This document shows positions 4,901-46,706 of a stretch of 64,000 bases of DNA, piece by piece. Source of the DNA: Onthophagus taurus. Lineage: Eukaryota > Arthropoda > Insecta > Coleoptera > Scarabaeidae. Under the pieces are notes generated by a model. That model had not been told where the DNA came from. It saw only the letters and a list, made by a program, of their open reading frames with translations, and did no database searches. Both the position numbers and the translations under genes were made by a program. The number at the start of each line of letters is the position of its first letter. Positions within the stretch are counted from its first letter, which is position 1. The stretch is taken from NCBI RefSeq assembly GCF_036711975.1, contig NC_091966.1, positions 5,339,501-5,403,500 on the forward strand, written 5' to 3'.

Positions 4901-7900
4901 CTCATTTACAGTTTGGTATTCCAATGTTATGGTCACAGATATCAGATCATTGCGATTGCTATTTCTGTAACATAAACCTAGACAGCATAAACAAAAAAAA
5001 ACAAAGAAAAGTTTGGTTTATCCTAATATAAAATCAGCCAAAAAGCCGATTCCGCACAGCGAAACTTTACCAAGACCAAATCCTCCTGACCGATTAATGC
5101 AATCCAGTGAAAGTGATCAGAGTAAAGAAGAGAGTGAAGATATGGTATCTAGCAGCGACTATGATGCCAAAATAAACCATAGACTGTCACAGAAAGAACT
5201 AAGTGACTTAGGTCCACTTTTACCATCTTCCTGATAAACTATCTAGAGGATAGTTGCCATGGTTACGGCGGTTTTAAGAGCTCTCATTGGCTAAGAACTG
5301 GATTTATCTATCGGATAAATTTATTAGGAGGTGGTAAAAGTGGGCCTTAGCTAGAGATCTGAAGTTGTCGAAGATTGATAGTGAGGTATTAGCATCCCGC
5401 TTACAGCAATGGAATTATTTACACCTTATAACCCGTGTAACTGTTTATCGAAACAGAGGCGAAGCATTTGTACAATTTTTTTTACGAAAGATCAAGGTAT
5501 TTGTTATTGTAATATCGTGCAGAGACTGTTTGATGAATTGAAAATAGATCATAACCCAAGTGAATGGCGTCTTTTTATCGATAGCTCTAAAAACAGTCTT
5601 AAAGCAGCTTTACTTCATAATGGAAACACACTACCAACTATTCCACTTGCTCATACCATCAATGTTAAAGAAACATATATGCGCATATCAGAGGTTTTGA
5701 CTCTAATTCAGTATAACGCATTTGAATGGAAAGTTTGTGCAGATTTAAACGTAATTGCCGCAGTAAAGAAATTTACTAACTTTAAGTATTGACTTACATT
5801 TCTATGATTTTCAGGTAATTGCTGTGGTTACTGGCTTACAAGGCGGTTTTACAAAATATTGCTGTTTTCTTTATTTGCGGGATAGCCGAGTGAGAGAGCA
5901 TCATTATGTGCGCAAAGACTGGCCTTCTAGAGAACATTACGATGCTGGTGCTTTCAATGTCTTAAATAAGCCTCTGATGAGACCAGCATTTGTAATATTG
6001 CCTTCATTACACATCAAACTGGGTTTGATGAAAATCTTTGTGAAAACGTTGAATCCAGAAGGCCCAGCATTTAAATATCTCACCCAGCTCTTTCCACTAC
6101 TATCATATGCTAAACTAAAAGAAGGCATATTTGTTGGCCCTCAAATAAGAAAATTAATAAATAACAACGATTCATATCAATATTAACAACAAAAAAGCAA
6201 CGACGTGGATTAGCTTCGAACAAATCGTCCATGGATTTTTAGGAAACCATAAAGATGAGAATTATCGCGAAAGAATTTCCAACTTATTGCACAATTACGA
6301 AGCCATAAATGCGAATATGGCGCTCATAATCCATTTTCTCCATTCGCACTTAGATTTTTTTCCAAGCAATCTTGGAGCAGAAAGGCGAGCGGTTCCATCA
6401 AGACTTAATGACATTGGAAAGACTTTATCAAGGTTACTGGGACACAAGTATGATGGGAGATTATCTCTGGAGTGTTATCAGAGAAATCGACCCAAAGACA
6501 TACACAAAATTGTCGAAAAGTAATCATACCCCGCACTATACTAACAATAAGTAAAGTAGTATATATTAAACATAAAATTTAATTCCATAAAAGTTCTGTA
6601 ATATAAACCTAGACAATATAAATAAAAAGACAAAGAAAAGTTTGGTATCGTTTGTAAACTCTGCCAAAACCAAATCCTCCTGACCAATTAATACAATCCA
6701 GTAAAAGAGTAAAAAAAAGTTATAAGAGTAAAAGTGACAGTGAAGAAATGTCATCTAGCAACGACAGCCAATAAATTTTAATTATTTGATATGGTTAATG
6801 TTCAACATTTAGAACAGGTAAAGTAATATTGATTTCAGTGAATTAAAAAAAAATGGTTCGTAATAATGTTTCAACAATACAGTGAAAATGGCAAAAAATG
6901 AAATTTTGCACGATTATTGTAAATTAACGATATCTCCGGTAAAATACGTTGGAACACGGTGTCTTCGAAATTTAGAGAATTAAATGTTCTACGGGATAGA
7001 ATAGCTAACTTTTTTGTTCACATATAATTCTTGTTCGTTACGGTGCGATTAATTGATAAAAAAATGGGAAAAATGCCAAAAAATTTGATTTTTTATGCCA
7101 TCAATACCTCAAAATGTTCGTCTGGATCTCTACTTTCATGTCCATATAGCTACAGAAGCACACTATGCAAAATAAACTGAACATGAACCGTTATGTTTTT
7201 TAATTTACGATTTTCCACATATTTGGGTATATCTCAAAAACTGGACATGATGGAGAAAAATTGAAGACAGTTTTAGAATCAGCACAACATTCTGCATTAT
7301 AAAAAAATATCACAGTCTTCGAGATTTTTCTTGTAGTGTTATAAAATAAAAATTAATTAAGTTACATCAGAACCCCAACTGCAAATGCATGTGGTTTTAA
7401 TAAGTTCTGGAATACGATCAAGATAATTAGGGACTTCATCAAGAAATTTCTCAGAAACAACTTGAATATCTTCAGTTTGAGATTCTGCAATACGCGAACC
7501 CATTCGTTCCACTTCTTCTTCAGTTGAGATAACCGCCATAATCGATTTATCAATTTTAGTAACAATTTTACCGCCTAATTTTGTAATTTCGTTCTTAATT
7601 TTTTGCTTATCACCGTTTACTTTTAAAATAACAAATTTCATTTCGTACAAAGCGGGTTTTGCCCTTTCAACTTTTGGACTAAAAATTAAAAGAAATAAAT
7701 TTTATTTTTATTTATTATCAAATTTCTTTTTACCCAGAATCTACTTCATCTTCTTTTTTCACTGCAGTGGAAGGTGCAACATCTTTAATAATTCTCGTCC
7801 TTTTAACGTATTTGTATTTTTTTAAGAAAGGATATTCTTCCTTCATTTCTTTTGGCACAACGAATTTTTTTCTTGCTGGCTCTTTTGTAGTAAAATTACA

Positions 7901-10900: not shown

Positions 10901-13470
10901 TACCAATAAGTTTTATGTGAGGAATTGCAAATCCAATATTTTAGCTAACTCTCCGATGCAGAGGATGTGTAAATGAACTAACAGTAATAGTGTAGGTATA
11001 TGTGAGTTATTGTTGTTTTATAGCATGTGCTATTTCTTTTGTTTTCTTGTAATATTGTCGTGTAATTGATGTTTGCTGGGCAATAAAATGAATTATTATT
11101 ATTATTACTGGAACAAATTAGCTAAGGAATAGTAACAACCCCTGTAGAAAGGTCCCTGGACTTCCATGTAGGGGATTGGGCAATAGGCTATAGGCGTGAA
11201 ATTACATAGTTGCGAAGCCTGAAGTATGGACAAATCTTAAAAAATCGACTCCAACAAAGAAACATGGATATTTCCTCTTCTCGAGATTTGGTTGAGACAA
11301 AATCTTCTCTTTTCATTTCATACAAAATGAAACTATTTTTTTCCAGCAAATCTTTATTGCATTATAATAGCCTTGAGCAGTATATAACTGATCCTTTTTC
11401 TTGTTGTTGATCCTATGTTTCATGCAGCAAGATGCTATTTCTTCCGCAGCTCTAGATGCTACAAGTTTACTCCCATGCATACATATGAATTCCATTATCT
11501 TGAAAATTATGGAAACCTTCATTAAGAACATACATATTTCGCTTATAGTATGCAACAGAAAATGATAATTTAGGATATGGAAGTGCCTTTTGTAGATCAA
11601 AATAATTTTATGAGAAAAACATACTCAATTGAATGTATGATTATAAATATGGAGAGAAGATTTCTATATTTTACTAAAAATACCGTTAAGTCATTCTTTT
11701 TTAAAAGTGGACTTATACCACTTTCAAAAATAATAGCACAATTTATAGAGACAATAGGCAGGCACTTATTTCAGGAGAACACCAACAAAAAAGAGAAATT
11801 CTTAATTAATTTCGCCATCAGGAAAAATATGATGAATATGTGAAAAGCAGAGGGTTAGGTTCAGATCACCTATTAGTTCAAATAAGATTTAGCCACTGAA
11901 TTAAAAAAACAACAATAAACGCAGTCAGATAGCGTAATGGCTGGATATTGAGAAGAGTTCATTATTCGCGTTTATTCGCAAAATTTCGATAAGGCTTTAA
12001 CATTTTCTAGAAAAACGAGATCATCACATGTTAGCTACTTTTTAATAATTATGATTTTTTATAACATCGAATTTAGGACACCTGTATATTAAAAATGTGA
12101 TACATTTTCTCATCAGCAGTTTTCACTTAGACCGTCCCACCCCTAATACTTTTTGAATATTTACCAAGACATATGCTGTATAACAATTCAATAATAAAAT
12201 ATTCAGATAAATCTAGCTGACTCTTGTTTTGTCCAATTAATTGAATTACTTGTGATTTATCATCATAGCAGTCCATCATAGACTAAGAGGGCTACCCTTC
12301 CATTACATATCATTTTAATATGTCAAAAACTTCTTGAATAGCTTCTTGCGTTTGATTCTCCACCTCTAGGTTACCTTTAAGAATCAAACAATCTTTTTTA
12401 AAGTAGTTCCCCAAGGTATCAATTCTCTGTATTCTATAATGACTTATCAAAAAATCTATAATAAGGAATTTGACTTTAAAACTGTAAATGTTTTAATGTA
12501 ACAGCTACTTCTTGTACTATGGGAGATATTAATCATTTATATAACATATATTTATGTTTTGGAATGTTTCATTAAGTTACAACCTTAAAAAATGTTGTTG
12601 CAACCTGAATTTTTATGTCAATTTCAAGAATCACTAAACAATTATTTCAATTTACACTATAACTTTCAAGAAAAATTTCATTCACATTAACAAATAGAAA
12701 GAAAAAATATATTCATTTTTATTAACCAATTTCAATTACTAATAAAAACTTTTATTTACTTACGGAAGTTGACTTTTAACTTCTTTTTTATCATCGGCTT
12801 TTAATGCATTAAAACCAGGTAATTTATCACCATTTTCATAATATCCTAATTCTGAGCGCAAATTAGCAAAGCAAGTAAGATGATGCCACTTGTCTTGACC
12901 TCCGTAACGTTTTCCAACATCCGTTTCAAAATCTTTTTTAGAAATCCTAATCTAATGATTTAAAATAATAATAAAAATAAACTCTAAATGTAAATATGTA
13001 TAATTACTTCATCTTTAAGAATTTTTTGTTCACATCCACGACAAGCGGCTCTCGACGATTTAGAATATTCAATTTTAAAGTCTTTTAAAGCATTATTGCT
13101 TTCGGCATCGCGTTTCTTTCCTTTTTTAGCTGGTACAACTGTAGAACTACCGGAAGCAGTAGCTATAAAACAATTAATCATGCAATTATCCTATAAACCA
13201 GTCAATAAGAAACTTACAATCAACTTTTTGTTTAATGAATTCCTGATCTTCATTCCGTAAGGTCTCGTAATTTTCAATATCGTCAACGCTTTTTGGTCTT
13301 TGCTTTGTAAAAAAGCACATGTGATGGTACCAATTTGGTTGTTTACCATCAAACTTTGGCGATTGTATCATAACGGCTAATCTTAACGTACCTTGTCCTA
13401 TTGCCGATTTACAACCCTTACAAGAAGCCCGGCCGCTTTTTGCGTATTCTGCTCTGTAGGGTAAATCCAT
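1999..13470 (-). CDS. PARP1: Poly(ADP-ribose) polymerase 1, complete, 8 exons
   Basis: Nuclear DNA-break sensor that polymerises ADP-ribose from NAD+ onto itself, histones and repair factors. Minus-strand coding exons: 13470-13218, 13162-13008, 12951-12764, 8284-8086, 8029-7734, 7678-7366, 3597-2305, 2250-1999. All have GT-AG junctions in phase, giving 2949 nt and 982 aa (human 1014). Domains in order: zinc finger 1 (C17, C20, H49, C52); zinc finger 2 (C125, C128, H160, C163); PADR1/zinc finger 3 (C282, C285, C299, C309); BRCT (about 365-465); WGR (W565-R567); helical regulatory domain; ADP-ribosyltransferase fold. The catalytic triad is intact: H833 in LLWHGSR, Y867 in GIYFAD and E959 in [10 protein letters not shown], with the same H-to-E spacing as human. 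Introns 4 and 6 are inflated to about 4.5 and 3.8 kb by transposons; the other five are only about 50-60 bp. AATAAA-type signals on the minus strand lie near 1850-1865. Confidence 0.96.
3772..3953. repeat. Long hairpin (MITE-like) inside the transposon's left end
   Basis: Two arms of about 65 bp (3772-3840 and 3888-3953) are near-perfect reverse complements around a short A/T-rich centre. Both contain GTCTCTTACAAAACTTTGAT or its complement. The right end of the host transposon lacks this block, so it appears to be a later insertion into the left inverted repeat. Confidence 0.55.
5211..5346. mobile_element. 136 bp MITE copy 1 with TTA target duplication (PIF/Harbinger-like)
   Basis: The termini GGTCCACTTTTACCA and TGGTAAAAGTGGGCC are inverted repeats, flanked on both sides by TTA (5208-5210 and 5347-5349). 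The insertion splits the reading frame of the surrounding transposon: the frame before it ends ELSDL and the frame after the second TTA resumes with ARDLKLSK in the same frame. A second 136 bp copy is at 58127-58262. The 3 bp TWA duplication suggests PIF/Harbinger mobilisation; the assignment is an inference. Confidence 0.8.
8874..9006. repeat. 133 bp perfect-arm palindromic element
   Basis: A 33-base arm at 8874-8906 is repeated exactly in inverted orientation at 8974-9006, around a 67-base GC-rich centre. It abuts the 5' end of the LINE relic in PARP1 intron 4. No coding potential. Perfect arms imply recent origin or active sequence correction. Confidence 0.7.
9007..11110 (+). mobile_element. 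Non-LTR retrotransposon (Jockey/CR1-like) relic in PARP1 intron 4
   Basis: The plus strand carries the end of an endonuclease domain (about 9040-9380, with [19 protein letters not shown] and a downstream HHPALN-like segment). Reverse-transcriptase remnants follow (about 9450-10480, broken), then a readable 3' part at 10511-10900 with [17 protein letters not shown], the LGFVLRTS region and [10 protein letters not shown]. The 3' end is followed by an ATT microsatellite tail at 11090-11106, typical of some LINE clades. Many stops are present, and it is antisense to PARP1. The same family's 3' end recurs inverted at 56531-57060. Confidence 0.75.
11110..12760. other. Rest of PARP1 intron 4, no gene recognised
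   Basis: AT-rich sequence with scattered short frames, including an 88-codon plus-strand frame at 11577-11843 and an overlapping 95-codon minus-strand frame at 11313-11600. Neither has recognisable domains or splice context. Probably decayed repeat sequence. Confidence 0.4.
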
Positions 13471-14426
13471 ACTTAAACCGATATGAATGCTGATAAAAAC
13501 AAATACGATTTAACAATAATTATTATAACACAAATGATTTGTTAAAAAAACAGATTAATTTCTGAGATAGTTAACGAACAAGTCGGTGCCTGTTTAGAAC
13601 ATTCCCGCCATATTAAAGCAAAAAAGACGTTACTCATGATTACCAACCTTTTAAAATTTAAAATTTATTAATACTTATAAATTATTAAATGGATTTAATA
13701 GTATTTTACAAATAATTATTGTCGCTTAATAATCTAATAATCCAAAAATATTCGACGCTAATAATTTAAAAATGATGATTCATTTTTATTTAATTAATTT
13801 GTTATGACATCTATTGGCCTTGTCCTGTAACTTAACATAATTAAAAACTTCATTTTTCGTAATAAAAGATTGTTTTAAACAATTCGATGTTTTCATTTGA
13901 TAATAACATAAAAATTTCAAGTACATCCTGTGTCTCATCAAGATGATAAAACGAATTGTATTGATTTTTTATTGATAACATTTTTTGTTGCGACATCTAT
14001 CGGTGCAATACAATAAATTTTTATTTATTTAAAATATTTTCTAAATTAATTAATAGAATTTCTTATGTAATTAGTAATAACACATCGTTACGATAATATT
14101 GGATAGAAAATACAACTTAACATTTAATTTTAAACCAGATTATGTTTTTATGTAATTAAATGAGACATCTGTTGGAATTTTTTGGTAACAAATTTAAATC
14201 AAATTTGGTTTTTGAAATTAATTCTTGTTTGTTAAATAAATCCATAATTTGTTTTATGAATATAATTTAATTATTCCAATATGTTTTTATTTAATAGTTA
14301 ATAATTAATATCTTATCAAATCTAATATGAAACATGCACCTTTTCTAGAAATATCAATAAGATAAGATTTTTAGATAAGATCCTTGTATTTCCTTTCAAT
14401 AAATCAGTATTATACTTATAGTTAAA
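13471..14426. promoter_or_regulatory. Divergent intergenic region PARP1 / first Ly6-like gene
   Basis: About 950 bp between the start codons of two divergent genes. Three GATA-factor motifs (WGATAR) sit close to the Ly6-like gene: 14311-14317 in reverse, 14360-14366 and 14373-14379. Three copies of a GACATCTRYYGG-type motif occur at 13806-13817, 13990-14003 and 14162-14175. No clear TATA box was identified. Confidence 0.45.
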
Positions 14427-15015
14427 ATGAATTTCTTTGCTTTAACCCTCGTTTTAGCTTTTTGTGTAATTACACCAACCAAAGGTAAATTTAAATAAAT
14501 ATATTTATTAATTTTTGATATTAATTAACTTATTTGTTAGCTTTAAAATGTTACACCTGTACAAGTACGGATGAAGCTGTCGATGAAGCTTGTATAAACG
14601 ACCCAGAAAGTGTAACTGCTTCAAGCGCGATCACGGAATGTAATAAAAAATACTGTTATTCGATTCGAGTTGAATTTGTGGTATGTTTTCTATTCAATTT
14701 CCTTTTCTATTAAATAAAATATAACAAACATTTAAGGATCCCAAAGGAAAAGTTTCATCAATGTCCAGAACTTGTGTAGACGAACCTTTATACAAAAGTA
14801 TGGTTATAGAGGATAGCACTTTTAGAACTTATTATCGAGCGTGTAATGAAGATCTTTGTAATGGTGGTTCTGGAACAGATTTGTCACAAACGACTTCTTC
14901 CATCGATAATGGAAAAGCAATTACAATTTTTGTTAGAGGAACTGGATCTGGTTCAACTATATTCGCATCGTTAGGCTTAATATTAGCTTTACAAATGTAT
15001 TTACGATTAAATTAA
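14427..15015 (+). CDS. Ly6/three-finger GPI-anchored surface protein, copy 1
   Basis: Exons 14427-14484, 14541-14680 and 14737-15015 join in phase to 158 aa. A signal peptide covers about residues 1-19 (MNFFALTLVLAFCVITPTKG). A cysteine-rich three-finger domain follows, starting ALKCYTC and ending with the family's C-to-CN finish in ACNEDLCNGG; eight cysteines are visible. A serine/glycine linker and a C-terminal hydrophobic stretch (about 137-155) ending in YLRLN look like a GPI-attachment signal. The protein should be secreted and membrane-anchored; insect relatives tune ion channels and receptors or build septate junctions, but its own role cannot be read from sequence. It shares both intron positions with the gene at 18477, so the two are tandem duplicates. 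A polyadenylation signal is near 15117. Confidence 0.88.
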
Positions 15016-15399
15016 ATCTTTATTTTTATTTAGAATAGATTTAAAATAGATATTTTTTTATGTGGAATCACTGTCAAAATTTGAAATTACTAATAAATTA
15101 CTCCCTTTGTATACTCAAATAAATATAAATTGATAAAAGTTAATCGATAATCTAATAATTGATTTTTTTTTCTATTTTCATCCTTTCTTTATAACAATTC
15201 ACTCGATCATTTCTCGTGTTTTCTAGTAACACATTTTGGTTCAACTTAATAAATATTTTGTTAGCCTCACATTCCAAAATTTCATAATTGGAGCTTTTAG
15301 AGGTGCAGCCAGACGAATCTGTATGCTGAGTAAACTTTGTGCAATAAAAAGAAAACCAAAGACCATGTGAAAGATTGTGTGAAACCATGTGAAAGAATT

Positions 15400-16350
15400 T
15401 TAAAAATGTGATACCAAGAAATCGATTTGAACAGCTATTGCAGATGTGGCATTTCAATAATAATAAAGATGCAAGTTTTTCTAATGATAGATTCCAAAAG
15501 TTAACACCTTTAATGAAAAGAAAATAGCAGAAAGAACAAAAAAACATAAATTTGGCATAAACATATACAAATTATGCACCACAGGTGGATACACATATGA
15601 TTTGCAGATGTACCGTGGAAAATATGACCAAGGTTGGTCTCCTTGCTGCTTCTTCAAATGTTGTTTTATCCTTACTAAAGAACCTTCTAGATTCCGCATG
15701 AACAGTCTATAACTATTACACCAGCGTTTATTTAGCCAGAAGACTGCTTGAAAGGCATACACATCTCGTAGGAACCATAAAAGCAAACAGAAAATTAAAT
15801 TCAAAAGAAGCTTTGAATCGAAAACTGAAAAAACATGAAATGATAGCCCAGCAAGAAAGCACTTGTGGTATTGTAATCTAAAATGGAATGATACTCGTGA
15901 TGTGTTGTTACTCATAGCTAAACATGCTGACGAGATCATTCGAGGTCAACAACGTGGAAAGGAAATAGAGAATCCTTTAGCTATTTTTGACAACAGTAAG
16001 TCGAAAGCTTATATTGACTTATCTGACCAGCTACAAGCATATTCGCATTTCCTTCACTAAATGGTATCGAAAATTACCTATTGAACTAATTTTAGGTTCT
16101 GCATTTTTATTATTCAAAAAAATTACACAGAATAATATTGCCTATATACCTGCCTATGGAGCCTGAAGAAACGAATAACTTACATAAATTGAACACCAGA
16201 GATATCGATGTGTGGTTTGTTATGCCAATAATGCAGAACAGTTCGATAGAAATGTAACTCATAATAAAACAACCAGAAGCATGTGGTACTGTCCAGCTTG
16301 TAATAAGAATTACAGTGTTCCATGTATTTTTTTCTATTCATAATGCAAAA
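15400..16350 (+). mobile_element. piggyBac-family transposase relic
   Basis: Broken plus-strand frames carry the recognisable piggyBac order: a segment like NRFEQLLQMWHFNNNKDAS near 15420-15475; VYNYYTSVYLARRLLERHTH near 15705-15765; GTIKANRK; the central WNDTRDVLLLIAKHADEI at 15881-15940; and KAYIDLSDQLQAYSHF near 16005-16050. A C-terminal cysteine-rich end (CVVCYANNAEQF, then WYCPACNKNY) lies near 16215-16310. Stops and frameshifts throughout make it non-functional. It separates the two Ly6-like paralogues, so it inserted after or during their duplication. Confidence 0.8.
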
Positions 16351-16515
16351 AAAATTTAAAAATAACTACATTTTTCTGTCAAATTAATAAATAATTATTT
16401 TCTAATATTTATTATTTTGAAGTTTTGTCATAAATCCTCATAAAATACACTGTAATTATGAAACATGTATAAATATTCGTGACCAGGTAATATAAATTGT
16501 TCGTACAGACTGTGG

Positions 16516-16640
16516 ATTTTGAATGTCTATTTATTTAACATTGTAGTGAGGTAAATAGTGAAGTCTGAGACACTCATTGATGCCACGCCGGACAAAGTAG
16601 AGCAGCCAGTGAGGCACTAATGCTATACCACACCTCTCAG
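16516..16640. repeat. Left direct repeat flanking the palindromic array
   Basis: Begins GATTTTGAATGTCTATTTAT and ends with AGTGAGGCACTAATGCTATA and a few more bases. The same segment recurs in direct orientation at about 17682-17818, immediately after the array, with a small extra insertion. The pair brackets the palindromic array. Confidence 0.7.
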
Positions 16641-16643
16641 TAT

Positions 16644-17676
16644 GGCTAAACCCGAATGATTCTAGTTCTAGGTCTTGTGTTAGTTCTAGTGATAGTGCAA
16701 AACTAGAACTAACACTAGACCAAGAACTAGAAACATTCGGGTTTAGCCGCACGTCTCTCAAGACGGCTAAACCCGAATGATTCTAGTTCTACGTCTTGTG
16801 TTAGTTCTAGTGATAGTGCAAAACTAGAACTAACACTAGACCAAGAACTAGAAACATTCGGATTTAGCCGCACGCCTCTCAAGACGGCTAAACCCGAATG
16901 ATTCTAGTTCTACGTCTTGTGTTAGTTCTAGTGATAGTGCAAAAGTAGAACTAACACTAGACCAAGATCTAGAAACATTTGGGTTTAGCCGCACGTCTCT
17001 CAAGACGGCTAAACCCGAATGATTCTAGTTCTAGGTCTTGTGCTGGTTTTAGTGATAGTGCAAAATTAGAACTAACACTAAACCAAGAACTAGAAACATT
17101 CGGGTTTAGCCGCACGTCTCTCAAGACGGCTAAACCCGAATGATTCTAGTTCTAGGTCTTGTGCTGGTTTTAGTGATAGTGCAAAATTAGAATTAACACT
17201 AGACCAAGAACTAGAAACATTCGGGTTTAGCCGCACGTCTCTCAAGACGGCTAAACCCGAATGATTCTAGTTCTAGGTCTTGTGTTAGTTCTAGTGTAAA
17301 ACTAGAATTGACACTAGACCGAGAACCAGAAACATTCAGATTTAGCCGCACGTCTTTCAAGACGGCTAAACCCGAATGTTTCTAGTTCTAAGTTTTGTGT
17401 TAGTTCTAGTGATAGTGCTAGTGTAAAATTAGAACTAATAGTAGACTGAGAACCAGAAACATTCGGATTTAGCCGCACGTCTCTCAAGACGGCTAAACCC
17501 GAATGATTCTAGTTCTAGGTTTTGTGTTAGTTCTAGTATAAAACTAGAACTAACACTGGACCGAGAACCAGAAACATTCAGATTTAGCCGCACGTCTTTT
17601 AAGACGGCTAAACCGAATGATTCTAGTTCTAAGTCTTGTATTAGTGCTGGTGTAAAACTAGAACTAACACTAGACC
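16644..17676. repeat. Nine-unit array of ~121 bp palindromic repeats
   Basis: Units start at 16644, 16765, 16886, 17007, 17128, 17249, 17364, 17491 and 17606, spaced 121 bp five times and then 115, 127 and 115. Each unit is itself an inverted repeat. A ~46 bp arm opening GGCTAAACCCGAATGATTCT pairs with an arm closing CATTCGGGTTTAGCC around a short GATAGTGCAAAA-like loop. The joint between units (TTTAGCCGCACGTCTCTCAA then GACGGCTAAA) is also partly palindromic. There is no coding function: frames through the array only reflect the period. Related single or double units occur at 19695-19985, 42083-42137 and 45025-45370. Confidence 0.9.
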
Positions 17677-17681
17677 TTTTT

Positions 17682-17830
17682 GATTTTGAATGTCTATTTA
17701 TTTAACATTGTAGTGAGGCAAATAGAAAAGTCATGCCGTCTTTTTGAATTTATGAACTGACTGATAGATGCCACGGCGGAGAAAGTAGCCAGTGAGGCAC
17801 TAATGCTATACCACGCCATGCCGGACTTGT
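17682..17830. repeat. Right direct repeat flanking the palindromic array
   Basis: Near-copy of 16516-16640 in the same orientation, with an internal expansion of about 20 bp after TGAGGCAAATAG. The array therefore sits between direct repeats, as in a tandem duplication or an LTR-like arrangement. No coding content. Confidence 0.7.
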
Positions 17831-18476
17831 TAAATGAAGGGTACAATGAATGGTGGGTCTCGTATTCGAACAAAACGTTACAAAATATATCCTTTTCGTA
17901 AACCTTTGTTCAGCTGGTACATTATCCCAATAATAGAATTTGATTTACATTGCAATATACCAATTAGTCACAAATTTAGCCCTTAAACAAGATGTTTTAT
18001 TTCCTAATCATCATTATCTCGACTTCTGTATTAGCATTGTCTCGATTTAAATAATCTAGAATATTTCATCGTAATCTCTTGCATTGTTGTTGATCTGAAT
18101 TGAATTATCTTTCAGTGAATTAATCATAGTCTTTGAGATACTCTAAATAATCATATATTACCCATATAAACTTACAATTTACCACTAAAGACAACTTCAA
18201 ATTGATAAATACAACACTTTCATTTTATCACACTTACTTTAACTGAAGTAACTTTGACACTGCATCTCATCACATTCAATTCCAACGGAAACACTTATCT
18301 TAAAATTAAAAAAAGTGGAATTAACTTATTTTTGTAGTAACATAAAATTAATCTTCGGATTAATTTGTAATCCTAGTTGATGGAAGATACCTTATCAAAA
18401 CTAGAATAAAACACAGAACTCACGCACTAGTCTTATTCCTCTTTCAAGGAGAATCGGCTTGGTTTTAATCAATAAA
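17830..18476. promoter_or_regulatory. Upstream region of second Ly6-like gene
   Basis: AT-rich. GATA-type motifs in reverse orientation occur near 18225-18230, at 18294-18300 and at 18391-18397, which parallels the GATA motifs upstream of the first copy. Nothing else recognised. Confidence 0.4.
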
Positions 18477-19059
18477 ATGAATTTCTTTTTGACTTTTACC
18501 TTTGTATTAGCAATTTTCGTTATTTTATTGTCACCAACACAAGGTAAGCAATTCAAGTTTTTAAATCCTTTATTAATGCTTTTTCTTAGCTATAAAATGT
18601 TATACCTGCACAAGTACCGATGATGACGTCAATGATGCTTGTATAAACGACCCAGAAAGTGTAACTGCTTCCAACGCAATTACAGAATGTAATAAAAAAT
18701 ATTGTTATATACAGAGAATTGAGTTTGTGGTAAGTACCAAGTTAAAATACTTGTTACAAAAATTTTAAAAATAAATAATTTGTAAGGATCCAAAAGGAAA
18801 AGTCTCTTCAATATCCAGAACTTGTATTGATGAACTTAAAAATGATATTACAGAAGATACTACTTTTAGAACTTATTTTTATACGTGTGATCAAGATCTT
18901 TGTAATGGCGGTTCAGGAACGGGGATATCACAATTGACTACTTCAATCCATAATGGAGTCGCAAAGACGATTTTTGTTAGAGGAACCGGATCTAGTTCAT
19001 CTATTATCGGGTCATTAGGATTAATATTAATTTTACAAATATATTTACGACTCAATTAA
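18477..19059 (+). CDS. Ly6/three-finger GPI-anchored surface protein, copy 2
   Basis: Exons 18477-18543, 18590-18729 and 18787-19059 join in phase to 159 aa. The architecture equals the first copy: a signal peptide of about 22 residues, mature start AIKCYTCTSTDD, the same cysteine pattern ending TCDQDLCNGGSG, then a serine/glycine linker and a hydrophobic GPI-type tail ending YLRLN. Exon 2 is 140 nt in both genes and intron phases are identical, so they arose by tandem duplication. Divergence is concentrated in the third exon loop (LKNDITEDTTFRT against LYKSMVIEDSTFRT in copy 1). The stop codon is only 32 bp from the RRP42 stop on the other strand. The AATAAA signal at 19083-19088 would place cleavage inside the RRP42 terminal exon. 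Confidence 0.88.
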
Positions 19060-19091
19060 AGAAATATTTATAACCATACTAAAATAAACAA

Positions 19092-22000
19092 TTATTTTAT
19101 AAAACCCATCTCTTCCTGTGTATCTGGAATCCTGGCTAAAACAACTTGAAGTGCCTCTTCTAATCTATTACCGATTTTAGCCCCTAATTTAAGCCGTTCT
19201 ATTAATGAAATCGGATGTAAAGAGCCGCCTCCTTTTTGTAAAACGGCGCTAAAGTTCCCTTTGGAAACCGCCACAACAATAGACCCTTGAGAACATTCTT
19301 CTTCAGCACTTGTTGGATCAACAACACATTGATCACCAATTTTACACAAAGTAACCTGTAAAAATAATTAATATCTTTATTTTTCGTAAACATTTTAATT
19401 TTAGTTAAGTACCATCAAAGGTGCCCCAGAAATATCAAGTTTATCACAATCGAATAAATCCTCGGAAATATCTAATTCAACATTATTACCATCGATAGCT
19501 GTGCTTTTAATATGAGGTATGCTTGTATTCCATAAAGCAGCTTTAACAGCTATCGATATCGCATCGTAAAGGTTTCCACCACATTCAAGGAGCTATAATT
19601 TTAATTTTGATTTGAAGTTAATAATCTTTGTTTTTATTTATACTCTATTTTTTAATTCGGAGGAGTTTTTTCAAATTGAAGCGCCAAAAAGAAGGATTAT
19701 GATTCTAGTTCTAGGTCTTCTGTTAGTTCTAGTGATAGTGCTAGTGTAAAGCTAGAACTAACACTAGACCCAGAACTAGAAACATTCGGATTTAGCCGCA
19801 CGTCTTTCAAGACGGCTAAACCCGAATGATTCTAGTTCTAGGTCTAGTGTTAGTTCTAGTTTTACTTATTATTCAGTGGTAGGTAGATGTACATTTTTAT
19901 TGAACTAAAAGTAGAACTAATAGACCTAGATCTAGAAATATTCGGGATACTTTCTAGTTCTAGGTCTGGTGTTAGTTTTAGTTTTAGGTCACTAAAAATA
20001 TGCAACATAGTGATATTTTATGCTAACTAGCGCTACCTACCACCTACCAGCTAGGACTGCCAACTCTCCTCTATTTCAGAGGAGTTTGCTCTATTTAACA
20101 GGCTATCTCCTACCTTCTCTAATTTCTTTAATCCTCCTCTATTATCCTCTACGAAGAAAAAGAAAAAATACAAATATAGACGAGAACCAGAAGATTAAAG
20201 CACCACCCACTAAGAAGCTGAAGTATAAATCTACTTATTGAAAAGAGTAGTCTAACACATACAAATGGCTACAACCTTCTAAAATTAATGATGAATATGC
20301 TCAGTGTACTTTATGTACTAAAGATTTCTCTATTAAAGGTCAAGGATTAACTTCCGTAACTAACTAAGTGTAATAAGAAGTAATAACAATTAAATATTCA
20401 TATTTTTAGGTAAAACAGCATGAATTGACAAAAATTCATATCACACAATCAAGTGTAGCAGTAAATAACAATTTATTAACAACTTTCTGCACACCAAATC
20501 ATTCACCAGAAGAAGATAATGTGGCTGCAATTGAATTAGGATTACTGCATCATAACATAAAACAAAATTTGTCATATAATAGTTTCGCTGTGACATAAAA
20601 GTGCTCAAGCATACTACATTATGTCACCACCAGGTGGTTAAGTTTGTAAAACCGCCTTTTGCTTTCCTACTTCAGAAGCATGAGAGATTGTCCCAATCAA
20701 ATCAAAAAATTATTTTTTATAAAGGATGATACATATGAAGATACGCCAGAAAATAAAATCCAAGAGATTTACTTGCTATTGTGTGAAAATTTTCTTAAAA
20801 TACACTTAACCACAAAATTAATGCACCACTCTGACTTTTGGTTTTATTTCGAGAAATATTATATATTTCCGATTCATTAATATCAATTATAATAATTTGT
20901 TCATTATTACGCCTTTTATATAGGATTTTTCCATCTTCTTTATTAAATTTTGAAATCATAGCAGCTTTTCATGACGGGTTTGTTTTTACGTAAATAAGCC
21001 TCACTTCTAAAATAAATGTAGGCATTGTTTATTAGTTGTTTTACCAATTGATAAGATAACTGTCATTCGTGCAATACATAATGGAGCGTGCTAGACGAAA
21101 TTTAAATCGTAATGAATGTGTTCAAATTGTAACTTTGTCCAATGAAGAACTAACAAATCGCGACCTTGGTAGAAGGTTTGGCGTGGATGATCGGTTTTTG
21201 ATGCTTCGAGCACTTAGGGAACGGTTCACTACTGCACGAAGCCTCCAAATACAACTAAACGAGGTTCATAGCACTGCTGTTAGTCAAGATACCATGAAAA
21301 GAAGACTTCACACTCAAAATTTATGACCTCGGGCAGCAGCTACTGGTCCCAGATTATCTGCAAACCACCGAAGAAACAGATTGGCTTTTGCAAGAAGGCA
21401 CGTGGATTGGGAAATCCATCATTGGAAGCAGGTGTTATTTACGGATGTGTCACTGTTCTGCCTTGTAAGTTCATATCGTCGTCCAAGCGTGTATAGAAGG
21501 CCTTAATAAAAGATATTCCACATGTAACATTCGAGAAACCACATTATTCGGAGGCGGTTCAGTGATGGTATGGGATGGAATATCTTTAACAACTCGCACG
21601 GAACTTTTTATCGTTGATGGTGGACGTCTGAATTCTGAACGATACATAACAGACATTTTAGAACGTTTTGTGATACCTTTTGCACCTTACATTGGCGATG
21701 GGTTCATTCTTATGCAGGATAATGCGAGGCCACATGCGGCACATTATGTTACTGAATATTTAAATTATGTTAATATTCAAGTCCTCGAGTGCCCAGCCTG
21801 TAGTTCAGACCTGAACCCAATCGAGCATCTTTGGGACATAATGGGACGGAAGATTAGAAGTCAGCATCCACCATCTAACAGCTTAGACGAGCTGCACAAA
21901 GTCTTATTCGCGTATGGGAAGATATCCCTCAAGAAACCATCAGATCTCTAATTGAAAGTATGCCACGATGATGTCAGCCTACAATAACAGCCAGAGGTGG

Positions 22001-23821
22001 TAACACTAGTTACTGATAAATAAGTGGTGCGTTAATTTTGCGGTTAAGTGTATTTTATGATGCTATTCTGACATTAGAAAGTAATAAAATGTCAGTTATC
22101 GATGCATACGATATTTTTAAGACATTAGACGATAAATTTTCTAATCGATTAGATCAAAATTACGTTAGATATCTTGTTACGCAAAAATGAAAATATTTAG
22201 ACAGATATCAGGCAGAAAAATTTGAAAATAACTTTAAATTAGTCGTTAAGTTTGCTATACAGTACATCAAAAAATGGTTCGACTTTATACTGATAATTTA
22301 CTATATTTAATGTCTCATTTAAAGCTAAATAGTCCAGTTAAATTTCAAAAGCTACAAAACCCAAAGCTCATTTTAAACATTGATCAAATCTTTGATGAAG
22401 TAGACATTTTAAACAAAAGTTTAAATATAGTTTTCCAAGACGATAATTTTAAAAATAGTAGTACCTCTTGTAAATGGACTACTGTTTTAAATAAAACACA
22501 AGACCTGTCGAATAATTCACAAATTCTGTCAAATTTTCACTGTCAATTAGCATTAATACTCTAGTATTAATGTCAATTGATCGTGTTAGTCTAGTGTTTG
22601 ACCAAATAAAATCATTTTCAACGCCAACTAATGTTTACTGAGCTTAGTTAAATTTTGCGACGTGCCCTTAAACAGTGATTATCTTGGAAATAAATGAAGA
22701 ACTTTACAGAAGATTGGTAGGTATACCAAATTTATGTAAAAACGTCTGAGAAACTGTTTCAAGTTGTGTGAATTATAAAACTCTTTAAGTTTACTTTAAG
22801 GGAGTTTTTTAATGCAGGCAGTGCCACCTGAAAGATAAATCAAAACTAATACCACATTATTATTTATCGCCTTAAAAAATGATAATGTACCAATTTTCAT
22901 GTTCATAATGTAAGAAAAAACGAAATTATCAAAGAAAAACGAAAATAAAGTATTAACTTTAACTATCTGTATGTTCGTTATTATTAACAATTGGACTAAC
23001 ATAAATTGGGTTAAATCATAATTTAATGTAAAGAATTCATTGTTGCTCTGTGTCCCATTAGTAACGAACCACCCTGTATAGATATATTACATTTTATGTG
23101 GGACAAAGTAAGTATGTAAGTACCCCTTGGTTTTTATTATGTTTAAACAAATAAGTAACTACAGTTTACTTAAAATCCTCTCTGGTTTTAAACCTCATGC
23201 CAAAAAATATCTTTGAAAAATTACACTGACTTTTCATTTTACTCCTCCAAATTAAAAAATAGAATATAGACTGCAAATTAAGTCATACCAAAATATCAAC
23301 ATAAATTTTCCAACATTTTCTTCCTTTCAAAATACATAATTTTGTACTATCAAACGCACTGGGAGATTTATAAGCTGCAGCTAAACAATTACTTATTTCT
23401 GTAGCAAGATCTTCCCCACCACGCCCTTCAAAGTTAGGTGTTGCATTAGCTGAACTAAAAAATTAATTAATATGACATAAATATCTATATTAATACACAT
23501 AAATATTATTTAAATAATTTACCAATCGATAAAAAACTCAATATTTCCTTCGTTTGGTTTATCGGGATGTGTTGAATCCACCTCTAATTTAACAGAAACT
23601 AATACATCCGTCGTGGCTAATCTTAATCTTGCAGATCCAAAGGCATGAGATATTATTCCTGTTTCTAATTCCATCGGTCTATAATCCTCTCGGGTTCGAC
23701 CATCATTTCTAAAGTTTTCCTAAAAATTTCGAATTATACACTCGTTTTTCGTTAAATTATTAATTAAACTTACTTCAACTCCATGTAAAATAAATGTTTT
23801 TTCGGCGTCACATAAAGCCAT
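19092..23821 (-). CDS. Rrp42: Exosome complex component RRP42 (EXOSC7), complete
   Basis: Inactive RNase PH-like subunit of the six-member ring of the RNA exosome, which degrades and trims RNA 3' ends in nucleus and cytoplasm. Minus-strand exons: 23821-23774, 23719-23523, 23454-23289, 19592-19413 and 19355-19092. Junctions are in phase, giving 284 aa (human EXOSC7 291). Family landmarks seen: HGVEENFRNDGRTREDYRP at the N-terminus, GSARLRLATTDVLVSVKLEV, FEGRGGEDLATEI, then YVDILLLECGGNLYDAIS across the exon 3/4 junction, and VTLCKIGDQCVVDPT in the last exon. Intron 3 (19593-23288) is swollen by nested transposons and palindromic repeats; the other introns are 54-68 bp. It is transcribed divergently from CFAP52 and convergently with the second Ly6-like gene. 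Confidence 0.93.
19695..19985. repeat. Dispersed palindromic repeat copies in RRP42 intron 3
   Basis: Starts with one unit of the 16644-17676 family (ATTCTAGTTCTAGGTCTTCT onward), then the joint GCCGCACGTCTTTCAAGACGGC. A variant unit follows whose centre contains ATTATTCAGTGGTAGG and TTTTTATTGAACTAA. The same variant centre, diverged, appears at 45025-45370. Confidence 0.8.
20020..22640 (+). mobile_element. hAT-like element with BED zinc finger, interrupted
   Basis: Plus-strand fragments suggest a hAT-type protein. A BED-like finger lies near 20265-20350 (KWLQPSKINDEYAQCTLCTK, then DFSIKGQG), followed by a VKQHELTKIH segment near 20410-20440. More frames lie at 20659-20800 and 22051-22564. 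The frame ending ENFLKI at 20800 continues in phase after the Tc1/mariner insertion (20803-22050) with a segment starting FYDAILTLESNK. Several stops and gaps are present. The superfamily is inferred from the BED-like finger only. Confidence 0.55.
20803..22050 (+). mobile_element. Tc1/mariner element (1248 bp) nested in the hAT-like element
   Basis: Termini CACTTAACC and GGTTAAGTG are part of ~28 bp inverted repeats, flanked by TA dinucleotides (20801-20802 and 22051-22052). The transposase relic starts near 21081 (MERARRNLNRNE) with a helix-turn-helix region. The catalytic regions are a first aspartate in LFTDVSLF (about 21436), a second in MQDNARPHAAHYV (about 21715) and the glutamate in LNPIEHLWD (about 21817). 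A stop near 21324, a stop near 21504 and a frame change make it inactive. The intact ends and target duplication show the insertion precisely. Confidence 0.85.
22640..23288. other. Rest of RRP42 intron 3, unclassified
   Basis: AT-rich sequence. Stretches near 22800-22830 (AGTGCCACCTGAAAGATAAA) and 23040-23085 (AACGAACCACCCTGTATAG) look like the ends of decayed mariner-type repeats. No frame is convincing. Confidence 0.3.
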
Positions 23822-41800: not shown

Positions 41801-44420
41801 TAAATTTCTTTGAAGTAATTTCTATGGATGCTTACTACATTTAGGCATGAGACATAATGATACAGATTAAATAAGGAGTGTATGGAAAGTTATGGGACAT
41901 TATGAACAAGTCTTGAATTGTTTCTGCACAAACTTGATTTGATTAAACCTTGTTGCAGAAATGATGTAGACTTTATGCGGAGGTGTCTCGAAGCAGATTT
42001 GATGAATATCTTGTTGAAAACTTGATGTAGAGATATGATGCAGACTTCAAAAAATTGATGCAGGTTTAATAAGAAGTGCTAAATCTAAAATTAGAACTAA
42101 CACTAGAACTAAACTTTCGGGTTTTGCCGTACGTTTTTTCAGAAAAGATTTGACGTTTCGGATGCCATTATTGATGCAGATTTGATGGCGAATTGTTTCT
42201 GCACAAACTTGATTTGATTAAACCATGGTGAAAAATCTGTGCAGAAATGATGTAGACTTTATGCGGAAGTTATCTTGAAGCAGACTTGCTGAAAAACTTG
42301 TTAAAAATTTGATGTGGCTATGATAGAGATTTGGAGTAGATTTGATGGAAGTTTACTGCTTCTATTAAGTCTTGAGACATAATCGAGATATCATGGAGAC
42401 TTCCAAGAATCGATGTAAATTTAATATGGAGTGTATGGAGCCGTGTGAGTGTATAGGCAAACTGCAACTATACAATAGAAACCGAACTGGATGGAGTACC
42501 AGAAAGGAATGAAATCATAACCTTGAGAGACTTAACTACGAGAATTGGCAACGAGGTTATATGTGGCATCAAAAACAGATTCAATGAAGAGACTATAAAC
42601 TAAAATAGTGAGAGGCTAACACAGCTTTGTGCCCAAAATGAATTAAAAATTAAAAATACATATTATCCCTACATGCTACAACACAACTTTTTGAAATTTT
42701 TAAATGTGGAATGTGACCACAACCTTGTATTGGTGGCAATAAGAAGTATAATTCAGCCAGCAAGAAGAACAGCTACAAATAAAAGCAGGGAACTAAAGAA
42801 TCAATGGAGGATGATTTGGTTATGTATCTACACCAACGAATACTTGAGGAAAAAATATTAACGAACAGAATACATTAGGAAATACAACCTAACACAAAGC
42901 CACCTGATTCACTTATTAAATATACGAAGACTACAAAGTAGTGAGAAACTTTGGTGAGAAACAAAATAAACACAAATATCCAATCAATCAAGAAAACCAG
43001 TAGCATTTCTGCTGCTAGGAAAAGTTTAGGAAAGAACTCAGAAAAAAAATCTGGAATTTATTGAGAAACAGAAAGAAACCACTAAACGAGCTCATACAGA
43101 CCACAAAGATAGAGGCAGAAGAGTGGGACAAATATTTCAAAAGACATGTACGAAGAGACATGGCAGAAAACGAGGAAAACCGAATCTGCTTAATTAGAGT
43201 TGGAGACTAATGCTCAACCGAGATTCAGCTTCTCCAAAGGAAATATACCACAAATAATCCAGAAGATGAAAAATATAAAATTAGTAGGTATCGAACTGAT
43301 TAAATATGGCGAAGACTCACAGGTAGATGAAATGTACACCCTGTTTAACATAATTATCATAAATAAAAGGATACCAACTCCATGGAAATGCAGCATACTA
43401 CTACCAATCCTCAAGATTGGATTAAGAGAATTAGTCTCTTAAGTTGTATTCAAAAAATGATAATCAGAGTGCTATCAGAAGAAATAGATGCAGCTAGAAT
43501 CTACGAACAACAACAGGGATTCAGATAAAACTGGGCAACTGTAAATGCAATTTCTGTTGTCCGACAAATAACTTAATGCAAAACTTAGAGTTCGGTAAGA
43601 CAGCTTTTCTGTGTTTCATCGAACTTAAACAATCTATTGATAGGGCAAGAATAAGTGATATGGTGACCTTGCTAGAAAAACTGGAGGTCAGGATTTTGTA
43701 AGAACAGTGGAGAGACTCGCGAAAGGTATACCAATTTTATTGCAAATGAAGTGATACCTCAGCCCAGTGTTATTCAATTCAGTTAAGGACGAAATAATTA
43801 AAGAAAGGATGTGTGAACACGTAAATGATGCTGTCTCATCTCTACTAACGAAAATAGCCCTAAAGCAATGCTGTATAAATTAGAAAAAACGGCAGAGAAG
43901 TACAATATGGAAATCTCTGCATTTTCTGTACTGTCACTAAGAACCAAGAAGATAATTAACAGCTTACAGTCGTGCTATAAATCAGGTTATGCGATTGAAA
44001 TATCGATATTGTCGTCGATACCTGAAAGAAGAAGTCAGTATACAAAATCACAAGCACAGTAGTGGTATTGAGGTGCCTCCGGGATGTAATATGGAGGATC
44101 AGATTTTCCGAAACAAAAATTGACATGCTTTTTAAAATCACAGAAATGAAAACTCTTCAAGCATACGAAGCAAAGATCTTAGGGAAAATAAGGAGTATAG
44201 GATTTGATGCGCACGCGGCTGACGGAGAGAATTAAAAGACCAGGTCAGGAGAATGTCAGAATACAGGTTGTTGAAAATCGCCAGATAAGGAAAATCACAT
44301 AGACCTCGTGGACGATCCTCAAAGAAGTGGTACAAAGCTGGAATTCTGCATCCCAGCCGAGACTCTGAACTGTTGAGGAAAGACATTAATATTAATGAAA
44401 AGTAATTAATAAATAAATAC
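41800..44420 (+). mobile_element. Degenerate non-LTR retrotransposon
   Basis: A 5' part with repeated GATGTAGACTT-type sequence (41800-42420) precedes an endonuclease relic at about 42470-42860 ([37 protein letters not shown]). Reverse-transcriptase debris at about 43000-44060 includes NIPQIIQKMKNIKLVGIELI, and a 3' tail ends near 44420. Nearly every segment has stops. A short palindromic-repeat fragment (42083-42137) is embedded. Confidence 0.65.
42083..42137. repeat. Short fragment of the palindromic repeat family
   Basis: Contains ATTAGAACTAACACTAGAAC then TTTCGGGTTTTGCCGTACG, a diverged right arm of the 16644-17676 unit. It sits between blocks of the LINE 5' repeats. Confidence 0.6.
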
Positions 44421-45024: not shown

Positions 45025-45370
45025 CACAAGACCTAGAACTAGAATCATTCGGGTTTAGCCGCACGTCTCCTAAGACGACTAAACCTGAATGTTTCTAGTT
45101 CTAAGTCTAGTGTTAGCTCTAGTTTTAATTGTTATTCAACGTTAGATTGTGGTATATTTTTATTGAACTAATACTAGAACTAACACTAGACCTAGAACTA
45201 GAAACATTCGGGTTTAGCCGTCTTAGGAGACGTGCGGCTAAACCCGAATGATTCTAGTTCTCGGTTTAGTGTTAGTTCTGGTATTGCACTAGAATTATCA
45301 CTAGAACTAACACAAGACCTAGAACTAGAGTCTAGAATGCTTCTAGTTCTAAGTCTAGTCTCAATCAAGC
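45025..45370. repeat. Palindromic repeat copies with the spacer in opposite orientation
   Basis: About three units of the family at 16644-17676. The joint near 45222-45245 reads GTTTAGCCGTCTTAGGAGAC then GTGCGGCTAAAC. Its asymmetric spacer is therefore reversed relative to the big array. One unit has a long centre with TTGTTATTCAACGTTAGATT and TTTTTATTGAACTAA, as in 19860-19920. Confidence 0.85.
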
Positions 45371-46706
45371 AAAACTTTTGCAAAACTACCCAATTCCTGT
45401 ACTATTAAGCTATTTTATGTGGGAGAGTGCAAGTGCATACTAGTTTCGTAATTATGGTTTACTTCACTATATGCTTAAATTATAAGTCAACTGATTGAAT
45501 TGAGAACGTTCCAAATTTGTTACGAAAGGTGTACGTACCTCGTCGTGTCTAGTGGGATCATATGGCTCGATCGAGAAGACGCAGCGTTGCCGGCTTGCTT
45601 TCGTAATAATATTCTGCGCCGGCACCTTTAAAGTAAAGCTAAATATCTTGGAATTACGAGGCTTCTGCATTTCGAGACACCCCTGTTAAGACTTCGAGAC
45701 TGTTAGGGGTGCACAATTTGCGAAACACTGGATTAAAGGATAACATTTAGTTTCGTTCCGAGAAATGATTTTAGTTGAAAGGTTAAAAGTTGTCCGTGAC
45801 ATAAGTAGTCCCGTAGATCATTATGAACAACAGTCCATAAATTAGCGGAATAAACGTCTGGCCGGAGAAATTAATCAGGAAACAAATGATGCGGTGGCCG
45901 ACGGAACGAGGGCACTACTAGGGGCGGTAAGGGTACGAGAGGGGCAGTCGGCGGCGGCGTTAACGGTGGGAGATGCGGGCGGTTCTCTGTCGGCGCGGTC
46001 CGTCGATCGTCGTGCGCAGTCGTCCCGGCTGCCATTACTGCGAGGCCGCCTCGGCAGTAGAAACGGGAGGACGCGATTGGTCCGTTCGGGTAGTCGTGAG
46101 TCGACGATCAACTACGCAGAGAACCCTCTCAGTCACTCGAGTAACTTGCGCGAGGAAGTGACAGTCGCGGATACCTTCGCAAACGGGCCCCACGAGGAGA
46201 CCGACCCTCTCTCTAAATCTGTCAAAAAATATCGAAAAAGCGCGCGCGGGTTCCGACTTATTTATTAACGGATAATAACGCGAGTGGACTATTTTGTTTT
46301 TGGATTAACATACCTCTTTTTTTTTTGATTTAATTTTTTGTTTTCATCGCCGCCTACCCAACTGGTTATAACAACAACAACAACGCTCCAACACTCCGTA
46401 TAATAAAGAATAATAATATTTGAGATATTTCTATATAATTATGATTTTGTTTTAAATTTGATTTTGTTGTGCGCGGCAACAAGTAGTGAATTGCGCCGTC
46501 GAGAATCGATAATGCCTGGTTTCGCGACGGTGTTGTTCTTCTTCTTGTGCGGATCGGGGGAGGCTCCGTCTTCTTCTTCTTCTTCGTCTTCTTCTTTCGT
46601 GGCATGTCGTTAGGCGGTGGCGCGAGTGTGCCGAACCGAGGAGCACCGACGTGCCGAGGTGGTGCCATGTAGCGGAGCTGTAATGCCGCGTCGTTGTGTG
46701 TGAACC
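45370..46706 (+). promoter_or_regulatory. Pangolin upstream region and 5' UTR
   Basis: From about 45880 to 46230 and again from 46480 to 46706 the sequence is rich in CG dinucleotides, in contrast to AT-rich DNA on either side. It directly precedes the pangolin start codon. Long chance frames here (for example 45894-46268) reflect the base composition. TTCTTCTTCTTC repeats lie at about 46570-46600. Confidence 0.5.

Follow-up and report, generated by a model that had tools for sequence, protein, structure and literature searches.

In the text available from the papers cited here, coral CMITEs are described as elements of ∼100 bp that have piggyBac-type ends and duplicate TTAA, and whose fully matching terminal inverted repeats are 13–14 bp (PMC2872659). 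In Xenopus, Xstir and miDNA4 are MITEs that bear tandem repeats; miDNA4 is a Tc1/mariner MITE whose internal satellite varies in copy number, and arrays without ends have been proposed as a later stage (PMC12628747). The foldback element Tetris of Drosophila virilis is non-autonomous and modular. It has end portions in common with another MITE and ∼220 bp repeats inside its terminal inverted repeats, and its internal tandem repeats seed satellite-like arrays (PMC4079207). Among beetles, the non-autonomous Tc1-Mariner elements of Callosobruchus maculatus are essentially large palindromes with consensus lengths of 654–2199 bp (PMC10849321), and dispersed satellite-type repeats occur in the euchromatin of Tribolium castaneum (PMC5844308). 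Helentron-derived elements bearing satellite-like repeats are known as well (PMC7492417). An earlier note on the DNA studied here held that no standard transposon class has the layout of its hairpin array; with tandem-repeat MITEs (PMC12628747) and palindromic beetle elements (PMC10849321) described in print, that statement was too strong.

We analyzed a stretch of 64,000 nucleotides from the scarab beetle Onthophagus taurus (contig NC_091966.1, positions 5,339,501 to 5,403,500), called the window below. Table 1 lists its main features. Tandem Repeats Finder gave a period of 121, 8.6 copies and 90% matches for the array. Arm mapping resolved nine hairpins, the ninth with a partial arm, and loop sizes of 5, 11, 13 or 19 nt. 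All eight joints have the same orientation (8 of 8); a joint is a small palindrome of the form CGTCT-loop-AGACG, in which an asymmetric CA marks the orientation. The nine-unit palindromic tandem array that had been proposed from the letters was thus confirmed, together with its ∼121 bp hairpin unit, its palindromic joints and the direct repeats of 120–136 bp around it. The earlier note had also placed single units at three other positions of the window. Relatives were indeed found at all three, but not as single units, since two of them are short chains and the third is one degraded arm.

Table 1. Positions of the hairpin array, its relatives and the adjoining repeats in the window.
Feature	Position	Strand	Remarks
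Degraded remains of a piggyBac-like transposase	15700..16343 (approximate)	+	DDE_Tnp_1_7 match in one piece
Left bracketing copy	16515..16634	+	piggyBac-like 3' terminal region; lacks the ∼12 bp tip and TTAA
Nine-hairpin array	16644..17677	+	Arm (48)-loop (5-19)-arm (48), 14-nt palindromic joints
Right bracketing copy	17682..17833	+	Repeat at 17682-17817, continuing to the tip and TTAA (17830-17833)
Short hairpin chain with the same units	19699..19982	+	One unit with a 51-nt 'loop B' (subterminal-like motif)
One degraded arm	42092..42129	-	Arm mapping
Short chain of hairpin units	45025..45359	+	One forward and one reversed joint, a 'loop B'
'X' transposon-end module	45366..45442	+	Follows the 45025-45359 chain; 84% to the inner X motif from other loci

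Several other features lie in the window. Transposase remains at 21469-21951 (DDE_3, E 5.2e-11), presumably of Tc1 type, are found near the short hairpin chain at 19699-19982. Two very similar small ORFs without a Pfam match (14725-15015 and 18775-19059) flank the array and are probable tandem paralogues. The matches to zf-PARP (13186-13509, minus strand, E 3.5e-22) and RNase_PH_C (19092-19367, minus strand, E 1.1e-13) are probably host gene exons. Another tandem array at 37849-39203 has a period of 173, ∼7.9 copies, 90% matches and a consensus unlike the hairpin unit; the tandem array at 61069-62508 can be read with a period of 173 (66% matches) or 335 (82%, ∼4.2 copies).

To estimate the spread of the unit, we searched the 290.8 Mb assembly (33 contigs) with a 30-nt joint pattern at ≤2 mismatches. 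It was found at 6981 + 6946 sites (control, 0 + 0), so the unit is not confined to the window and its claimed dispersal holds. If each joint represents one ∼121 bp unit, hairpin units would amount to ∼1.7 Mb, or 0.6% of the genome. We then examined 34 main loci, which are the surroundings of the best matches to one unit (40 of 1463 candidates scored, a non-random sample), and a further 6 loci chosen for the bracketing repeat. Hairpin chains were present in all 34 best-scoring loci. With joints counted at ≤5 substitutions, the number per locus ranged from 2 (L033, L053, L054, L055, and L061) up to 18 (L045 and L058), and L044 has 21 joints split over two clusters. The unit interior is 115 nt long in 125 of 208 units and 121 in 49, a step of 6 nt. 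Adjacent joints point in the same direction in 189 of 208 pairs and are opposed in 19. At L039 two single joints are reversed, and the units on either side have an unchanged orientation. The interior is opposed to both of its own joints in 6 of 208 units, with the orientation of short interiors being less certain. With regard to satellite DNA, the units stand head-to-tail, in arrays that are short and dispersed and whose units are only slightly more alike within loci than between them; with regard to foldback elements, inverted repeats run throughout the chains, and no distinct middle segment was recognized. A search for relatives in IMG/VR returned 0 stretches matching one 17-nt pattern. We also looked at the strand polarity of joints over long range. 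C1 appeared one-sided among the matches listed, yet exact joints known from C1:5356242 (in the window) and from the minus strand of L057 were absent from those matches, and the idea was dropped. Two further repeats were noted at these loci: in L045 (2556-5099) the hairpin chain is arranged in larger repeating blocks that share one reversed-joint pattern, and L042 contains a different tandem array at 4280-5201 (period 181, 96% matches).

Three recurrent kinds of non-array sequence were found at the array borders, termed pogo-like, X and Y. The first kind has a CAGT tip and a TA target, which we take to be pogo-like. Its layout is CAGTAAAACCTCGATATAAC, then 23 or 27 bp, then TTATAGCTCAATAAAAATATACAACAATCTA, followed by the hairpin arms. 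The tip CAGTAAAACCTCGATATAAC occurs at 955 + 992 sites genome-wide at ≤2 mismatches, and the subterminal motif TTATAGCTCAATAAAAATATACAACAATCTA at 495 + 493 sites at ≤3 mismatches (control, 0 + 0 for each). Among the subterminal sites listed for C1 and C2:0-20.8 Mb (48 of 988), 7 lie ≤150 bp from one of the 100 exact tips listed (of 1947), all on the same strand and with a gap of 23 or 27 bp (expected, 0.02). A more degenerate subterminal-like string (≤8 of 30 mismatches, a laxity used without a control) was seen in 24 of 34 loci. In the loci examined, TA stands just outside 8 of 8 tips at ≤3 mismatches, 9 of 10 at ≤4 and 9 of 12 at ≤5, some of these tips being >1 kb away from the array of their locus; TA makes up 9.3% of dinucleotides. 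At ≤6 mismatches only 12 of 54 tip-like strings have TA beside them, and many of these strings are arm sequence.

One complete copy was recovered, in L042. It consists of TA, a tip (766, plus strand, 2 mismatches), a subterminal-like motif, 15 joints, an inverted tip (2841, minus strand, 0 mismatches) and TA. Among the loci examined, inverted pogo-like ends on one copy, and TA on both of its sides, were seen in L042 only. With respect to insertion-site duplication, TA is thus supported at the 8 of 8 good tips, and on both sides of a copy in L042 only. Among the loci examined there was no compact single-joint copy with both tips. L059 was considered as a clean founder palindrome and rejected, the candidate not being a clean palindrome.

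For X, the second kind of border, 40 of 885 candidate matches were scored. Of 31 partial matches, 27 end at query position 145–151 and 4 earlier (128–138); of the nine full-length matches, one is the query and the other eight lie on C4. Those eight repeat the L052 array border over 250 bp with 95% identity; they are spaced ∼54–148 kb apart in C4:1948872-2510300 and perhaps reflect a large duplicated block or a higher-order repeat. Exact copies of the X sequence ATGAAATTCCCAGTA number 27 + 22 (control, 0 + 2). The junction AAGACGG+X, a pattern that includes only 7 joint bases, was found at 66 + 78 sites (control, 0 + 0), and the fuller order from arm and joint to X at 5 places in 4 loci (L033, L035, L036 twice, and L068). 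Y is located opposite X at L034, L036, and L049, which makes it probable that a single family has X at one end and Y at the other. Y also matches the X side at L033, L035, and L049, because the two motifs have an inner stretch in common. In the window, a Y end motif match (81%) is present at 23080-23137, with no hairpin arm mapped close by.

An end motif of any kind was detected within 300 bp of 12 of the 34 main arrays, at 3 of them on both sides, and at 22 of 34 none was detected. In this count the left tip of L042 was scored as array-internal, so that L042 would be a fourth two-sided array, and a nearby L055 tip with 4 mismatches was missed. End-motif sites numbered 18 in 26.6 kb of flank vs. 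5 in 102 kb elsewhere, an enrichment that is partly circular because the motifs were partly drawn from these loci. None of the tested end motifs was found within 300 bp of the window array.

We consider it probable that the arrays are the amplified palindromic cores of non-autonomous DNA transposons (MITEs) that insert at TA and form a large family. An amplified MITE had been among the suggestions of the earlier note; the complete copy in L042, with inverted ends and TA on both sides, and the 495 + 493 subterminal sites speak for it, and the lack of ends at the window array speaks against it. At best, therefore, the array of the window derives from a pogo-like MITE. Alternatively, the arrays could be a dispersed satellite-like repeat that spread through either extrachromosomal circles or microhomology-mediated repair, with no transposase involved and with the MITE ends as hosts or neighbors. 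The 22 of 34 arrays without any tested end within 300 bp fit this explanation, as do array ends that fall at varied points of the unit (judged by eye, uncounted); the window array itself begins within a joint and stops within an arm. At L053, moreover, the paralogous tandem copy has 79 bp of other sequence replacing the array, and no TA-type duplication was recognized. However, a repeat spreading on its own would not readily account for the fixed spacing between tip and subterminal motif, the TA at 8 of 8 good tips, the complete and TA-bounded copy in L042 or the recurrent X junction, and we regard it as rather unlikely.

The X/Y end family carries the same arm-joint core as the pogo-like end family, and one palindromic core is therefore present under at least two kinds of ends. 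Tentatively, the core might move as a module from one MITE family to another, unrelated one, so that the palindromic core would persist rather than the ends, with its joints and loops being inverted in place, although we would not expect this to be so. If it were, the arrays would keep altering their orientation patterns in place.

We next compared the units with each other. For 207 of the 208 units, the identity was 0.918 within loci (928 pairs) and 0.900 between loci (20,393 pairs), and the within-locus value was reached by 0 of 500 label shuffles. Every unit has its best match in its own locus at L058 (17 of 17), L057 (10 of 10), L050 (9 of 9), L056 (5 of 5), and L034 (3 of 3). Such matches are rare at L041 (0 of 3), L065 (0 of 4), L031 (1 of 4), and L040 (1 of 3); in the window array they were found for 5 of 7 units. 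Local amplification is thus evident at certain loci only, because best matches lie in the same locus there and few or none do so elsewhere. Of the proposed history, in which the unit was dispersed and then locally amplified, the first part stands and the second applies to some loci and not to others.

The likeness between the two arms of a unit does not exceed that between arms shuffled within their locus. For the 176 of 207 units that remained once aligned, it was 0.8723 vs. 0.8721 (sd 0.0007) after shuffling, and 868 of 2000 shuffles reached 0.8723. Changes were found in a single arm in 741 cases and in both arms in 30, with the pair preserved in 20 of those 30; the consensuses of the two arms differ at 3 of 46 positions. 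The arms do not covary, and therefore there is no sign here of selection on the hairpin. For the same reason the palindrome is better explained by inheritance from a founder than by pair-by-pair maintenance. These data bear on the idea that the hairpin chain is under selection, either because it yields hairpin RNA and small RNAs or because it serves as a structural element of the DNA. Folding is the main point in its favor: two units folded as single-stranded DNA gave −88 kcal/mol vs. −22.7 (sd 3.25) for shuffled sequences (z −20.1, 0 of 200 as low), and the whole window array also folds strongly as RNA (without shuffles at that length). Against it stand the arm pairing at the shuffled level, the excess of one-arm changes, the 3 of 46 positions at which the arm consensuses differ and the lack of an Rfam match in window 13000-21000, which make selection very improbable. 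Most likely, the window array has no host function and is a neutral relic.

A Helitron- or Helentron-derived (HINE) element with an internal minisatellite, another suggestion of the earlier note, would superficially have a similar layout, as far as the accessible text on Helentron-derived elements with satellite-like repeats goes (PMC7492417). L042, the sole complete copy, speaks against it, with its CAGT/ACTG tips in inverted orientation and a TA at either side, and no Helitron-type end was noticed by eye in the array flanks inspected; we give this origin scarcely any credence. Misassembly, possible for tandem arrays, or chance can practically be dismissed given 13,927 joint sites vs. 0 in the control, on at least eight contigs and with differing unit counts and flanks.

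We examined the direct repeats that bracket the window array. Their BLAST identity is 75% overall because of indels but reaches 94% in two blocks without gaps, of 51 and 34 nt. In a first look, the left copy was found at 9 and the right copy at 10 places in the genome, their own included. A single copy with its tip followed by TTAA is present in L063, L065, and L067, as in the right window copy; in L064 the tip is present and the target has changed from TTAA. The left window copy lacks a 25-column inner block found in most relatives. In the alignment, the sequence inward of the left copy and the sequence outward of the right copy both match the relatives. The array is therefore enclosed in a piggyBac-like 3' end that is present to its left as well as to its right. 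When four pieces of the window were compared with DDE_Tnp_1_7, one piece of 58 aa matched at E 2.9e-6, above the cut-off, and the other three gave no match. The DDE_Tnp_1_7 search of the genome gave 116 matches, every listed one over the cut-off, and the window remains were absent from these 116 scored matches. By eye, the regions upstream of the copies in L064 and L067 look like the broken transposase of the window. Judged by sequence, the bracketing repeats do not belong to the array family; both are copies of one 3' end, that of a degraded piggyBac-like element.

Two other explanations of the direct repeats were rejected. They are not the array element's own ends, since they exist elsewhere as single piggyBac-like ends and nearly all other arrays tested lack them. 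In the 500 bp flanks of 55 array clusters (clusters too near the locus ends were skipped), non-array direct repeats of >100 bp were found only at the window array and at L053, with shorter matches of 13–30 bp at L048, L058, L059, and L062. Nor is a long target duplication the rule, since the second case, L053, is tandemly duplicated host sequence. In L063 and L068, piggyBac-like ends begin at a TTAA within or beside hairpin family sequence, and the two repeats have therefore met more than once.

A transposase of pogo/Tc1-mariner type, acting in trans, may have moved the MITE copies. DDE_1, presumably the domain of pogo-type elements, gave 150 genome matches, every listed one over the cut-off and several with long open frames. 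In C1 and C2:0-20.8 Mb, 26 DDE_1 matches were compared with the exact pogo-like tips listed (100 of 1947), and the smallest distance between a match and a tip was 6.6 kb. Because of this distance no autonomous partner is tied to the pogo-like ends, and the autonomous element with the same ends that the earlier note envisaged did not emerge from these 26 matches and 100 tips. Unequal exchange or slippage during replication would have lengthened and shortened the chains by whole units. Each joint or loop sits between inverted arms, so exchange between the flanking arms would flip it, which may have reversed single joints. Many arrays would have lost their ends later, and the window array may be such a chain without ends. 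It would then have been joined into the piggyBac-like 3' end, whose 120–136 bp terminal region is now on both sides, either through duplication at insertion or because two piggyBac ends were brought together.

With nearly 14,000 joint sites, and with loops, chain lengths and joint orientations that vary, the hairpin repeats document in many dispersed arrays how long palindromes are kept, extended and inverted in a genome. Annotators should be aware that a single core may be filed under several transposon families. No match to five arm strings was found in literature text, and the exact hairpin-chain arrangement was not found in the literature searched, a scope outside which Repbase and most subscription journals fall.

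The known systems can be compared with the hairpin chains as far as the available text of each paper describes them. The Tribolium castaneum repeats are, like the chains, dispersed in a beetle genome; they are of satellite type and located in euchromatin, and transposon ends or a palindromic chain are not among the features described for them (PMC5844308). The Callosobruchus maculatus elements, again compared by description, are likewise palindromic, non-autonomous and from a beetle, but a chain of small hairpins is not among their described features (PMC10849321). Tetris is similar as a modular non-autonomous element whose tandem repeats feed satellite-like arrays; its ∼220 bp repeats are situated in terminal inverted repeats, whereas the unit here is 121–127 bp and palindromic (PMC4079207). 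Coral CMITEs also have an internal module common to MITE families with unlike ends, and elements in tandem arrays. In contrast to them, the core here is palindromic, its ends are pogo-like (with TA) or X/Y, and chains reach at least 15 joints (PMC2872659). Of the Xenopus MITEs with tandem repeats, miDNA4 shares the internal repeat of variable copy number, and arrays without ends are proposed there as a later stage; in the beetle the unit is itself a hairpin and the orientations of joints vary separately (PMC12628747). The hairpin chains are thus probably short arrays that arose inside MITEs, which is a known kind of structure, in an unusual form made of hairpin units and separately oriented joints, with one core under at least two kinds of ends.
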